Shown piece by piece: positions 3,434-7,105 of a stretch of 64,000 nt of DNA. Origin of the DNA: Bacteroidota bacterium (GTDB lineage Bacteria; Bacteroidota; Ignavibacteria; Ignavibacteriales; Ignavibacteriaceae); contig JADFLR010000023.1 in NCBI GenBank assembly GCA_022564295.1, forward strand, positions 1 to 64,000, read 5' to 3'. Position 1 is the first letter of the stretch, and each line of letters begins with the position of its first letter. The notes beneath the pieces were generated by a model that was given only the letters and a program-made list of their open reading frames with translations, did no database searches and had not been told where the DNA came from. Position numbers and translations under genes: made by a program.

Positions 3434-3811
3434 TTATAAATTGTTTACAATCCGATGAATTCCATCTTTGAGAAGTTTTGTGTTAAAATTAATTAATAAT
3501 CCCAGTTTCAAATTTGATAACTTCAAATATGTAAGTAACTGTGCATAATGAACCGGAGCAAGTGATTCAACTGATTTTATTTCAACTATTACTTTGTTTT
3601 CAATTAATAAATCTAATCTGTAACCGATGTCTAACTTTATTTCCTTATAAATAAAAGGCATTGATACCTGTTGCTTAGTATCCAGACCAATTTCTTTCAA
3701 ATCGTAAGCTAATGCATTTTCATATGCCGATTCCAATAAACCAGGACCAAGTTTTTTGTGTAATTCAATCGCAATTCCAATAATTTTATTAGATAAATAA
3801 TTTTCGGTCAT
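3434..3811 (-). CDS. GxxExxY family protein
   Basis: A 125-residue protein of the GxxExxY family, named for the motif here read as GPGLLESAYENAL (residues 22-34). The core IGYRLDLLIENKVIVEIKSV (residues 57-76) matches the PD-(D/E)XK pattern: D62 followed by the E-I-K of VEIKS. The family is widespread in multiple copies in Bacteroidota, cyanobacteria and relatives, but its biological role is not established. The gene lies tightly between two copies of a palindromic repeat: its stop touches one copy and its start is about 20 bases from the other. That looks like a self-contained cassette inserted between ispF and the acylphosphatase gene. Nuclease activity is an inference from the fold signature. 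Confidence 0.88.
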   Translation of the reverse strand: MTENYLSNKIIGIAIELHKKLGPGLLESAYENALAYDLKEIGLDTKQQVSMPFIYKEIKLDIGYRLDLLIENKVIVEIKSVESLAPVHYAQLLTYLKLSNLKLGLLINFNTKLLKDGIHRIVNNL

Positions 3812-5254: not shown

Positions 5255-5320
5255 ACTAATAATTTATTTATGTTTATTAGCAATTTATCAAAGGAAGGTA
5301 AACAATAAAAGAAGAATATT

Positions 5321-5842
5321 CTACGCCCCTAAATTTATTTTACTACGCTTTTGATGTTCAAAGAAAAAATAGCCGGATATTAAAATGCCTAACGAAAAAA
5401 CTGACCCGATGATAGATAGATTTTTTCCGCTGAACAGCTTTTTTAATTCTGATATCAATCCATTTCCAAAACGATTGACAGTTTCAGTAATTTGAAGTGA
5501 TTCGGTTTGAGGTGCTGCAGAAGAAAAGATTGATATAGAAATAAAAACAACTATACCAATACAGAGCAAGATAAGAAATGATGTGATAGAATAAATAAAA
5601 TATTTTTGTGCGGCGGGTATTACAAAACTTTTACTAAGCATTGTCATTACATTATTTGTGAAATCAACACTAACTTTGTCTTCCTGCATTAAAGATAGTT
5701 CTTTATGAATTCGCTTAAGAGCGCTAAATCTTTTTCTGTCACTTTCAGAATTAATAATGATTTCCTCAACTTCAGCGGTTTGGTTTTTGTCTAATTCACC
5801 ATCAAGATATTTGTTCAAAATTTCATCAGAGAGTAAAATCAT
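5321..5842 (-). CDS. Putative anti-sigma factor, two membrane helices
   Basis: A 173-residue protein whose start overlaps the stop of the sigma factor gene by four bases (ATGA), the usual layout for an ECF sigma factor and its anti-sigma partner. Residues 1-55 are a charged helical cytoplasmic segment (LLSDEILNKYLDGELDKNQ) resembling the anti-sigma domain but without the zinc-finger His/Cys ligands. Two hydrophobic helices follow, at about 80-106 and 144-162, and the end is short and basic. Function is inferred from position and architecture; no family match is certain. It could sequester the sigma factor at the inner membrane until an envelope signal arrives. Confidence 0.7.
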   Translation of the reverse strand: MILLSDEILNKYLDGELDKNQTAEVEEIIINSESDRKRFSALKRIHKELSLMQEDKVSVDFTNNVMTMLSKSFVIPAAQKYFIYSITSFLILLCIGIVVFISISIFSSAAPQTESLQITETVNRFGNGLISELKKLFSGKNLSIIGSVFSLGILISGYFFFEHQKRSKINLGA

Positions 5843-6405
5843 ATTAACTCCTCAACAAGATTATTTTCAATAATAATATCCTTCAATGCATTTCTTGAAC
5901 GATACAACATTACCTTTACATTTGAAAGCGAAATATCCAAAGCTTTGCTTATTTCTTCGCAGCTCATCTCATCTAAATAAAATAAGCTAATTATTGCAGA
6001 ATGCTTTTCGGGTAATTTATTAACAAGTTCATTTATAAATTCTGACATATCCTTTCTTTCAGAAACATTATAATCATAATCACTTTTCAAATCAAAATGC
6101 TCATGAACCGAGGACATTTCATTTTCCGTTTTTCTTTTCTGTGATGATAACTTTGTTAAAGCTGTATTATAAACTATCCTGTAAAACCATGTCGAAAATT
6201 TTGCTTCACCTTTAAATCCGTTTAATGAGTTGTACGCTTTAATAAAGCAATCCTGCAAAGTTTCCTCAGCATCTTGTTCATTCTTTAACATTCTCTTTAA
6301 CAGAGAAAAGGCTTTGTCTTTATATCTATCAACAATAATTGAAAAATCAGCCTGATTACCAAGCTTAATTGAATCTATTATTTCCTGATCAGATAGCTTT
6401 TTCAT
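5839..6405 (-). CDS. RNA polymerase sigma factor, ECF subfamily
   Basis: A 188-residue sigma-70 family protein with only regions 2 and 4, the ECF layout. Region 2 is seen as DAEETLQDCFIKAYNSL followed by KFSTWFYRIVYN; the region 4 helix-turn-helix is CEEISKALDISLSNVKVMLYRSR. It directs RNA polymerase to a small regulon, probably under control of the adjacent membrane anti-sigma protein. Just upstream there is a TGTAACC-N16-GTCAAAA site in the correct orientation. The same site occurs twice in front of the divergent DUF6249 gene, so autoregulation is likely. The -10-like element is only about 7 bases from the ATG, so the transcript may be almost leaderless. Confidence 0.93.
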   Translation of the reverse strand: MKKLSDQEIIDSIKLGNQADFSIIVDRYKDKAFSLLKRMLKNEQDAEETLQDCFIKAYNSLNGFKGEAKFSTWFYRIVYNTALTKLSSQKRKTENEMSSVHEHFDLKSDYDYNVSERKDMSEFINELVNKLPEKHSAIISLFYLDEMSCEEISKALDISLSNVKVMLYRSRNALKDIIIENNLVEELI

Positions 6406-6411
6406 CTAAAC

Positions 6412-6441
6412 TTTTGACTAATACATAATAATAAGGTTACA
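6412..6441 (-). promoter_or_regulatory. Putative ECF promoter of the sigma factor gene
   Basis: On the minus strand TGTAACC (6441-6435) and GTCAAAA (6418-6412) are separated by 16 bases. ECF promoters in other bacteria often pair an AAC-type -35 with a GTC-type -10. The match to two sites upstream of the divergent gene is the main support. Confidence 0.65.
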
Positions 6442-6509
6442 GAAAATCCTCATACCAATGACCTATTTGAAATATATCTATCTGCAATGTGATATGCAAT
6501 TTTGATAAT

Positions 6510-6539
6510 TGTAACCAATTAATTTCTTTTGGGTCAAAA
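6510..6539 (+). promoter_or_regulatory. Putative ECF promoter, distal copy
   Basis: TGTAACC (6510-6516) and GTCAAAA (6533-6539) have a 16-base spacer, identical in layout to the site in front of the sigma factor gene. It points toward the DUF6249 gene and lies about 84 bases before its start codon. Confidence 0.55.
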
Positions 6540-6563
6540 CTACAAATAATAATTAAAAATGAT

Positions 6564-6594
6564 TGTAACCGGCTGCTTAACGGTTTAGTCAAAA
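6564..6594 (+). promoter_or_regulatory. Putative ECF promoter, proximal copy
   Basis: TGTAACC (6564-6570) and GTCAAAA (6588-6594) have a 17-base spacer. It lies about 28 bases before the DUF6249 start codon, leaving room for a short leader that contains an AGGAG ribosome binding site (6611-6615). Confidence 0.6.
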
Positions 6595-6622
6595 TAAGAA
6601 ATTAACAAAAAAGGAGCTATAA

Positions 6623-6988
6623 ATGGAAGATATAATTGCAGTCTTTATTCCGATTATATTCATACTCGTTATCGGATTAGGTTATGTAACATTCATATTT
6701 TACAGATCGCGTGAAAGACAAATGCTGATTGAAAAAGGATTATCAGCTGAGGAAATTAAACAGTTCTTTGAGAAGAAAAGGGATTACTTTATTCTTTTTA
6801 AGATGGGAATCATTGCCATCTTCTTTGGAATTGGATTAGGATTAGGCATGATCTCCGGTGATGGAAGTGGCGGAGAAAGAGAAATCTGGTTGCCTTCTTC
6901 CATATTCATTTTCACTGGATTAGGATTCGTAGTTGCAAATATTCTGGGGAATAAAATGAGGAAACAGTATAAACCTCATGAAGATTAA
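6623..6988 (+). CDS. DUF6249-like small membrane protein
   Basis: A 121-residue protein with a hydrophobic N-terminal helix (residues 4-27), a charged cytoplasmic stretch around GLSAEEIKQFFEKK, and two more helices (about 58-77 and 90-108). This matches the DUF6249 family of Bacteroidota, of unknown function. It is transcribed divergently from the ECF sigma / anti-sigma pair. Two TGTAACC-N16/17-GTCAAAA sites lie in front of it, so it is probably a target of that sigma factor. An AGGAG motif precedes the ATG at a good distance. An envelope-stress role is an inference from the regulation only. Confidence 0.82.
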   Translation: MEDIIAVFIPIIFILVIGLGYVTFIFYRSRERQMLIEKGLSAEEIKQFFEKKRDYFILFKMGIIAIFFGIGLGLGMISGDGSGGEREIWLPSSIFIFTGLGFVVANILGNKMRKQYKPHED

Positions 6989-7028
6989 TTTAATGGAAGT
7001 GAATTTTTTAATAGTCACTTTACGCAGG

Positions 7029-7076
7029 GCGAAGAATCTTCCTTAATAAAAAAAAGATTCTTCGCAATTTTTTAAA
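7029..7076 (+). terminator. Rho-independent terminator after the DUF6249 gene
   Basis: A perfect 12-bp stem (GCGAAGAATCTT at 7029-7040, AAGATTCTTCGC at 7054-7065) is followed by AATTTTTT on the plus strand. It lies between convergent genes. The loop is A-rich, so the reverse strand also has a T-run inside the loop, but the plus-strand reading is the better terminator. Confidence 0.85.
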
Positions 7077-7105
7077 TAATTATCCAAATTTTCTATCCGG
7101 TTAGA

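Follow-up and report, generated by a model that had tools for sequence, protein, structure and literature searches.

A putative membrane-signal ECF sigma factor module with a conserved DUF6249 neighbour in Ignavibacteria and other Bacteroidota

The SigW/RsiW module of B. subtilis, which contains the closest solved relatives of both the sigma factor and the anti-sigma factor described here, is autoregulated. SigW recognizes promoters with the −35 element TGAAAC, and its regulon includes the DUF4097 protein YvlB. According to PMC11237479, a role in protecting cells from membrane permeabilisation has been ascribed to a B. subtilis-type Toastrack (DUF4097) protein that accompanies a PspC homologue. 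A promoter of the form tGTAACc-N16-CGAA was reported for ECF group 16, which includes SigF of C. crescentus, EcfF-OsrA of B. japonicum, and BcrS of Brucella, and in Brucella a divergent pair of sites of this type serves the sigma factor gene and a small peptide gene (accessible parts of PMC3420878 and PMC8315932). Two ECF/anti-sigma pairs from Bacteroidales, EcfO/Reo and CirY/CirZ, were tied to envelope or oxidative stress in the accessible text of PMC13114119, in which the string "DUF" occurs zero times. The RpoE-RseA-RseC locus of E. coli combines a sigma factor, an anti-sigma factor, and an extra small membrane protein, as does the locus described here.

We analysed a 64,000-nucleotide stretch of DNA from an Ignavibacteriaceae genome (the window). 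The window quite probably encodes a membrane-signal ECF module, in which the genes of a sigma factor and its anti-sigma factor are autoregulated, a DUF6249 protein and a DUF4097 protein are targets, and the DUF6249 protein is a proposed co-component of the switch. The module differs from SigW/RsiW in its −35 element, the two hydrophobic segments of its anti-sigma factor, its DUF6249 neighbour, its leaderless geometry, and the small number of conserved targets found. As far as the promoter description of group 16 allows comparison, the −35 element is the same as that of the window sites, but the −10 element of the group is CGAA, whereas that of the window sites is GTC(A/T)NAA. The anti-sigma factor of group 16 is described in the accessible sources as a DUF1109 protein with six membrane helices, whereas that of the window matches RsiW, and DUF1109 is not among the Pfam matches shown. 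The window module was therefore not assigned to group 16. EcfO/Reo and CirY/CirZ resemble it, by their description, as ECF/anti-sigma pairs of Bacteroidota, but Reo, according to PMC13114119, extends through every compartment as far as the surface. ECF/anti-sigma modules as a kind are already known, as is, from the accessible descriptions of group 16, the −35 element TGTAACC. What appears to be new from the sequence comparisons is the near-constant DUF6249 neighbour, the fusion of a promoter to the start codon of the sigma gene, and the DUF4097 target. A search of the open-access literature, outside which most subscription papers lie, returned no account of such a DUF6249/ECF module and nothing joining Ignavibacteria with "ECF sigma factor"; the term "DUF6249" was met in a plant gene-family context, and a query for a Bacteroidetes sigma-factor promoter TGTAAC found the sequence in primers in the passages shown of one paper.

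The sigma factor is a 188-residue protein encoded on the minus strand (5839–6405). It is short and contains sigma-70 regions 2 (PF04542, E-value 8.8e-15) and 4 (PF08281, 3.4e-12) only, it is co-encoded with a membrane anti-sigma factor carrying a class I anti-sigma domain, and its gene is preceded by a predicted bipartite promoter conserved at orthologous loci, as expected of an ECF (group 4) sigma factor. SigW is its best relative among PDB sequences (1.1e-25), and its score against the NCBIfam SigW equivalog model is below the cut-off (122.9 versus 209 bits). The score against NF058625 (sigma_PG0214 / GFO_1088) is also below the cut-off (102.6 versus 130 bits). Of eight wider relatives of the sigma factor, five score 93.8–98.2 bits against the same model, and three (L108, L091, and L110) are not listed at E ≤ 1e-25. 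Because the sigma factors score under this cut-off, P. gingivalis PG0214/PGN_0319 was rejected as a studied member of the present sigma class.

The gene at 5321–5842 on the minus strand overlaps the end of the sigma gene by 4 bp. From profile and model comparisons, we take its product to be an anti-sigma factor of class I, in which an N-terminal anti-sigma domain is combined with two hydrophobic, presumably membrane, segments centred at residues 87–103 and 144–156. A profile of 65 homologues matches RsiW with an E-value of 5.6e-10 among PDB sequences and, weakly, DdvA, ChrR, and RsrA. The leading Foldseek matches of the AF2 model (pLDDT 84) are RsiW, ChrR, MucA, and RslA, with weak E-values, the best being 0.12. 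At E ≤ 0.1, the Pfam domain zf-HC2 was found in 28 of the 65 homologues and RseA_N in 10, and the window protein itself has no Pfam match over the cut-off.

The first-pass annotation placed three copies of one ECF-type promoter between this sigma gene and a DUF6249 gene. The two gene identities are confirmed by Pfam matches over the cut-offs, and a pattern search of the window found the three sites exactly where they had been described, with the same spacing and orientation. TGTAACC-N16-GTCAAAA is located at 6412–6441 on the minus strand, where it is the predicted autoregulatory promoter of the sigma/anti-sigma operon, and at 6510–6539 on the plus strand, where it is the predicted distal sigma-dependent promoter of the DUF6249 gene. 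TGTAACC-N17-GTCAAAA, the predicted proximal promoter of the DUF6249 gene, spans 6564–6594 on the plus strand. Between the −10 heptamer and the start codon there are 6 bp at the sigma gene and, for the distal and proximal sites, 83 and 28 bp at the DUF6249 gene, and AAGGAG at 6611–6616 on the plus strand is the likely Shine-Dalgarno (SD) sequence of the DUF6249 gene. When the window was shuffled 100 times with its dinucleotides preserved, no match of the pattern with N16 or N17 arose. The pattern occurs four times in the whole genome (4.07 Mb, 59 contigs), as the three window sites and one at C13:243951–243981, and the reversed pattern used as a control has no match in that genome. An Rfam search of positions 5300–7100 gave nothing at the gathering score.

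The conservation of the sites was studied in 41 genomes, consisting of the genome of the window and 40 relatives. Orthologues of the sigma factor with scores above 165 bits are encoded in 33 of them, and the next matches fall to about 100 bits. The DUF6249 gene is divergent from the sigma gene in all 30 orthologous loci that were read. A site 5–8 bp before the ATG of the sigma gene is present in every one of the 30 start regions, with up to two changes allowed in the −35 heptamer and the −10 end. On the DUF6249 side, an automatic scan found a site in 28 of the 30, and the remaining two, G022 and G007, also have one. Alignment of the intergenic region with that of the nearest relative showed that each of the three sites, including both predicted DUF6249 promoters, has largely kept its −35 and −10 elements, whereas the spacers differ; AAGGAG is kept as well. 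The sequence had been claimed as the recognition sequence of the sigma factor, and absence from orthologous loci had been named as grounds for refuting this. The sites at the orthologous loci, the footprint of conserved −35 and −10 elements, and the absence of a site at DUF4097 genes of three genomes without the sigma factor support the claim, and we consider that the three sites are very probably recognized by the adjacent sigma factor. The further claim that the DUF6249 gene is a target is supported by the conservation, orientation, and spacing of its sites at the orthologous loci. From these comparisons, the sigma factor appears to induce its own gene and those of the anti-sigma factor, the DUF6249 protein, and a secreted protein.

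The DUF6249 protein (6623–6988, plus strand; 121 residues) has three hydrophobic segments, with the motif ERxxLIEKG after the first. It matches PF19762 with an E-value of 1.3e-13 and 51.2 bits against a gathering score of 33, and the same family matches all 76 aligned homologues at E ≤ 0.1. In the alignment, residues E31, I36, and G39 are at least 90% conserved. The AF2 model (pLDDT 88.5) contains helices at residues 2–37, 42–51, 57–77, and 86–115, and the protein is predicted to be a helical membrane protein. No fold match was found in the PDB at E ≤ 0.001, and profile comparison with the anti-sigma factor showed no homology. Among the weak Pfam matches of the DUF6249 proteins, RseC_MucC ranks second in frequency (20 of 76, best E-value 0.0021). 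This hint probably reflects generic membrane composition, since MFS_1 matches almost as often (17 of 76). The DUF6249 protein of the window scores 13.8 bits against the RseC_MucC family, for which 24.4 bits are needed, and alignment of the DUF6249 profile to one E. coli RseC sequence with hhalign gave a probability of 0.35%; homology to RseC was therefore rejected.

The association of DUF6249 with ECF sigma factors extends across the phylum. A scan of named genomes returned 80 of 141 related loci, mostly from metagenome-assembled genomes (MAGs) of Bacteroidetes, Ignavibacteria(les), Ignavibacteriaceae, and Melioribacteraceae, together with Brumimicrobium, Dysgonomonas, Petrimonas, Prevotella, Tannerella, Fulvivirga, and one Ectothiorhodospiraceae MAG. 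A DUF6249 gene detected by HMM adjoins the sigma gene in 75 of these 80 loci. Among the five misses, L110 has DUF6249 by Pfam, and in L058 and L083 the contig ends close to the sigma gene. The other two, L070 (2963–4079) and L085 (2966–4070), have the sigma gene, the anti-sigma gene, and a leaderless-type site without a DUF6249 neighbour. Starting from the domain, a search of 296 genomes sampled across the phylum found PF19762 in 89 of them, over the cut-off in 83, and also in three of 14 control genomes, Caulobacter vibrioides, Bacteroides ihuae, and Haloferax volcanii, two of them over the cut-off. The neighbourhoods of 80 of the 99 listed matches were inspected, the remainder being 14 matches in genomes already covered and five weak ones. 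An ECF sigma gene is present within the same 2.6–4.4-kb stretch in 75 of the 80. The two genes are divergent in 62 of the linked neighbourhoods, DUF6249 comes first on the same strand in 12, and the sigma gene comes first in one, with a gap of at most 1149 bp. Two of the five neighbourhoods without a sigma gene, L193 and L195, are sub-cut-off Pfam matches that were not found again by HMM. DUF6249 is thus a near-constant neighbour of ECF sigma factors across the phylum. In Dysgonomonas macrotermitis, a single sigma gene is flanked by a tandem pair of DUF6249 genes (L107:2185–2997), and G014 (L021) has two DUF6249 matches.

We favour the DUF6249 protein as a membrane co-component of the anti-sigma switch rather than only an effector, because its gene keeps its place next to the sigma gene throughout the phylum even where the gene order has been rearranged. 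The broader proposal is tentative and would at present have the odds against it. It holds that an ECF class found throughout the phylum, with a leaderless, promoter-fused sigma start, has DUF6249 as a third core part of its signalling, a small membrane protein that would set sigma activity jointly with the anti-sigma factor. The chief rival of the favoured reading, which we rate somewhat short of an even chance, is that DUF6249 is a mere effector, for example one that stabilizes the membrane, without a part in signalling, and that the linkage is a convenience of co-regulation. In keeping with an effector role, a separate sigma-type site lies no more than 70 bp before the DUF6249 gene in 119 of 140 divergent loci, and L070 and L085 dispense with DUF6249 while keeping the rest of the module. 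However, DUF4097, the other conserved target, is not kept beside the sigma gene (zero of the 80 named loci and one of the 80 stretches L116–L195), unlike DUF6249, and persistence of an ECF gene in 75 of 80 DUF6249 neighbourhoods in three gene orders is probably commoner for signalling partners than for effectors. A mirror-tree comparison of evolutionary distances did not reveal a distinct DUF6249–anti-sigma pairing, as the partial correlation is 0.36 for DUF6249 and the anti-sigma factor, 0.31 for the sigma factor and DUF6249, and 0.62 for the sigma and anti-sigma factors.

The 6 bp separating the −10 heptamer from the ATG of the sigma gene are too few for a normal 5′ UTR, a point that the first-pass annotation had not made. 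Transcription by ECF sigma factors usually begins about 8–12 nt after the GTC, and therefore transcription from this site would begin on the ATG or within a few nucleotides of it. For EcfF, mapping placed the transcript start 6 bp downstream of the −10 box, according to PMC3420878. In 108 of 140 non-redundant divergent loci, a site with up to two mismatches ends 0–12 bp from the sigma ATG, and in 101 it ends 5–8 bp from it, versus 36 near-ATG sites in 42,000 mononucleotide-shuffled upstream regions. The near site is missing in the remaining 32 loci. It is found in 68 of the 70 loci up to L092, which come nearly all from searches of Ignavibacteriales, versus 40 of the 70 later ones. When TGAAACC is also allowed as the −35 element, the 140 loci divide into 111 with a near site, 20 with a far site (13–66 bp), and nine without a site. 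The near-ATG promoter design is common, not universal. An SD-like motif precedes the sigma gene in seven of the 111 near loci, compared with 5.8% in shuffled sequences, and precedes the DUF6249 gene in 70. The loci with a far site do not regain an SD motif before the sigma gene (two of 20 versus seven of 111, p = 0.63), and therefore the simple alternative of a leader with an SD sequence is unconfirmed there. Of 22 loci with co-directional genes, none has a site 0–12 bp before the sigma gene, as is expected if a promoter before DUF6249 serves the whole operon, and 15 have a site before DUF6249 (seven of nine and eight of 13). The mRNA of the sigma factor thus seems, from its promoter geometry, to be leaderless or nearly so.

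An alternative explanation is that the main sigma transcript comes from a housekeeping promoter farther upstream, that the adjacent site yields little sigma factor, and that leaderless translation does not take place. A basal promoter is presumably needed for the synthesis of the first sigma molecules, and in 29 of the 140 divergent loci the 11 bp next to the ATG are free of any site. Furthermore, leaderless mRNAs are rare in B. thetaiotaomicron, in which about 3.7% of 5′ UTRs are shorter than 10 nt (accessible part of PMC7366714), and the mapped transcript start of B. japonicum EcfF led the authors to shift the start codon downstream (accessible part of PMC3420878). Here, the in-frame stop codon TAG at 6406–6408, directly 5′ of the sigma ATG, excludes an upstream start, and homology begins at residue 1 in most orthologues, which together speak against a moved start. 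The 5–8-bp spacing in 101 loci and the chance-level frequency of SD motifs before the sigma gene also argue against the housekeeping promoter as the main source, and we consider this explanation unlikely. If the sigma mRNA is leaderless, translation of the sigma factor would follow other rules than that of its targets, and could persist or even rise when initiation on leadered mRNAs is impaired. The geometry allows a rare translation mode to be tested as a regulatory choice in Bacteroidota.

The motif had also been offered as a ready probe for the whole regulon, which holds only in part, since as a probe it is weak. Relaxed to 12 defined bases, TGTAACC-N15/18-GTCNNAA, it occurs at 133 sites in the 41 genomes. 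Of these, 61 lie no farther than 1.2 kb from the sigma gene and are spread over 32 of the 33 genomes that encode the sigma factor. Outside the locus, this relaxed motif is at background, with 72 sites versus 72 for the reversed control (63 versus 64 in the 33 genomes with the sigma factor, and nine versus eight in the eight without it). Within the genome of the window, WGTAACY-N16/18-GTCWNAA gave six sites and six control sites, and therefore single sites are no proof by themselves. The six comprise the three of the locus, one before a DUF4097 gene, one at L004, and one inside ORFs at L287. Of the 63 outside sites in genomes with the sigma factor, 61 were inspected; the set did not include G032:C311 and G034:C66, nor the nine sites in genomes without the sigma factor. 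Among the 61, 37 lie inside ORFs of at least 120 residues and 24 are intergenic; for 19 of the latter, an ORF begins no more than 300 bp away. Pfam searches with nine of the 19 proteins encoded downstream gave no match for two of them, and the DUF4097 family recurred among the downstream genes; the site at G032:C311 also precedes a DUF4097 gene. The recurrence among sites thus exposed a target that even the relaxed motif misses in the genome of the window, where the site, at C6:15602, is AGTAACT-N17-GTCTAAA.

A DUF4097-type match is present in 37 of the 41 genomes, and the best 30 loci, one per genome, were scored for sites with up to two weighted mismatches within 150 bp upstream, using a score, distance window, and cut-off set after the first sites had been seen and mononucleotide shuffles for each locus. 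Among these best 30 of 37, a site precedes the gene in 22 of 27 genomes with the sigma factor and in none of three without it (one-sided exact p = 0.014). None of 98 other ORFs has a comparable upstream site; this negative control excludes 15 DUF4097 genes and those ORFs of L196–L255 that are preceded by a TGTAACC-N15/18-GTCNNAA site, since these ORFs were chosen for the site. Of the genomes with the sigma factor, G007, G021, and G022 lack a DUF4097 site, and G037 and G038 have only sites with three mismatches. The DUF4097 copies begin with apparent signal peptides, as read by eye, and DUF4097 is apparently a conserved further target encoding a secreted beta-helix protein. Elsewhere, DUF4097 proteins partner membrane-stress systems, and the accessible text of PMC11237479 places the domain in the cytoplasm, which contrasts with the signal-peptide-like starts of the present copies. 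Among the DUF4097 promoters of L256–L285, the 22 scored sites have the −10 element GTCTAAA in 14 cases, begin with GTCTAA in 19, and their −35 elements are often one or two bases off the consensus; these deviations may mark a graded hierarchy of promoters.

That the repeated sequence is not specific to this sigma factor, being instead an operator bound by a different regulator or an ECF promoter of general type shared among several sigma factors, is highly improbable: the −35 element is not unique, being reported in the accessible part of PMC3420878 for group 16, and the relaxed search of the window genome equals its control, but the sites consist of two elements with a 16–18-bp spacer whose sequence is free to change, are aimed at genes, and are absent at DUF4097 in the three examined genomes without the sigma factor, while four of the six relaxed sites in the window genome belong to this locus and DUF4097, and the ORFs listed near the remaining pair (L004 and L287) include no ECF gene.

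Based on these comparisons, a mechanism of the module can be proposed. At rest, the membrane anti-sigma factor would hold the sigma factor with its RsiW-like cytoplasmic domain, until a membrane or envelope signal leads to its release. The free sigma factor probably recognizes TGTAACC-N16/18-GTC(A/T)NAA, as comparative genomics supports. It would then induce its own operon from a −10 element abutting the start codon; the resulting mRNA would have no leader or almost none, and the sigma factor would be translated from it in leaderless fashion. In the divergent direction, two tandem promoters in the window would direct synthesis of the DUF6249 membrane protein from an mRNA with a normal leader, and a site elsewhere in the genome would direct that of the DUF4097 beta-helix protein. 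In the reading we favour, DUF6249 would act on the anti-sigma factor, either by feedback or by passing on a signal. The proposal places DUF6249, a domain family so far unstudied, within a sigma factor class of Ignavibacteria and other Bacteroidota for which a promoter and targets can now be named and a mechanism tested.

Other candidates recur among the genes downstream of TGTAACC-N15/18-GTCNNAA sites. They include beta-lactamase-like serine hydrolases (L231, L233, and L237), CBM9/DUF5916 proteins (L241 and L247), and a YkuD protein (L240). L231 and L241 were identified by Pfam, and L233, L237, and L247 by likeness. In several members of the order, such sites are located 25–65 bp upstream of the genes in L231, L237, L241, and L247 and 261 bp upstream in L233, and the products are apparently secreted. 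The hydrolase and CBM9/DUF5916 genes are possible lineage-specific targets.

The fourth exact site in the window genome (L004, on C13) precedes a gene with an orthologue in one of five other members of the genus, and the fetched stretch around this orthologue has no exact-type site in that direction. The site is therefore, by its distribution, probably either lineage-specific or due to chance. The gene below it (L004:1736–2867) consists of two overlapping ORFs in different frames, encoding 270 and 114 residues, whereas in the nearest relative it is a single 377-residue ORF without the site (L289:1171–2304). The gene looks frameshifted in the genome of the window, unless the difference is an assembly error. 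The window also contains a small ORF at 3434–3811 on the minus strand, which we take to resemble the GxxExxY family.
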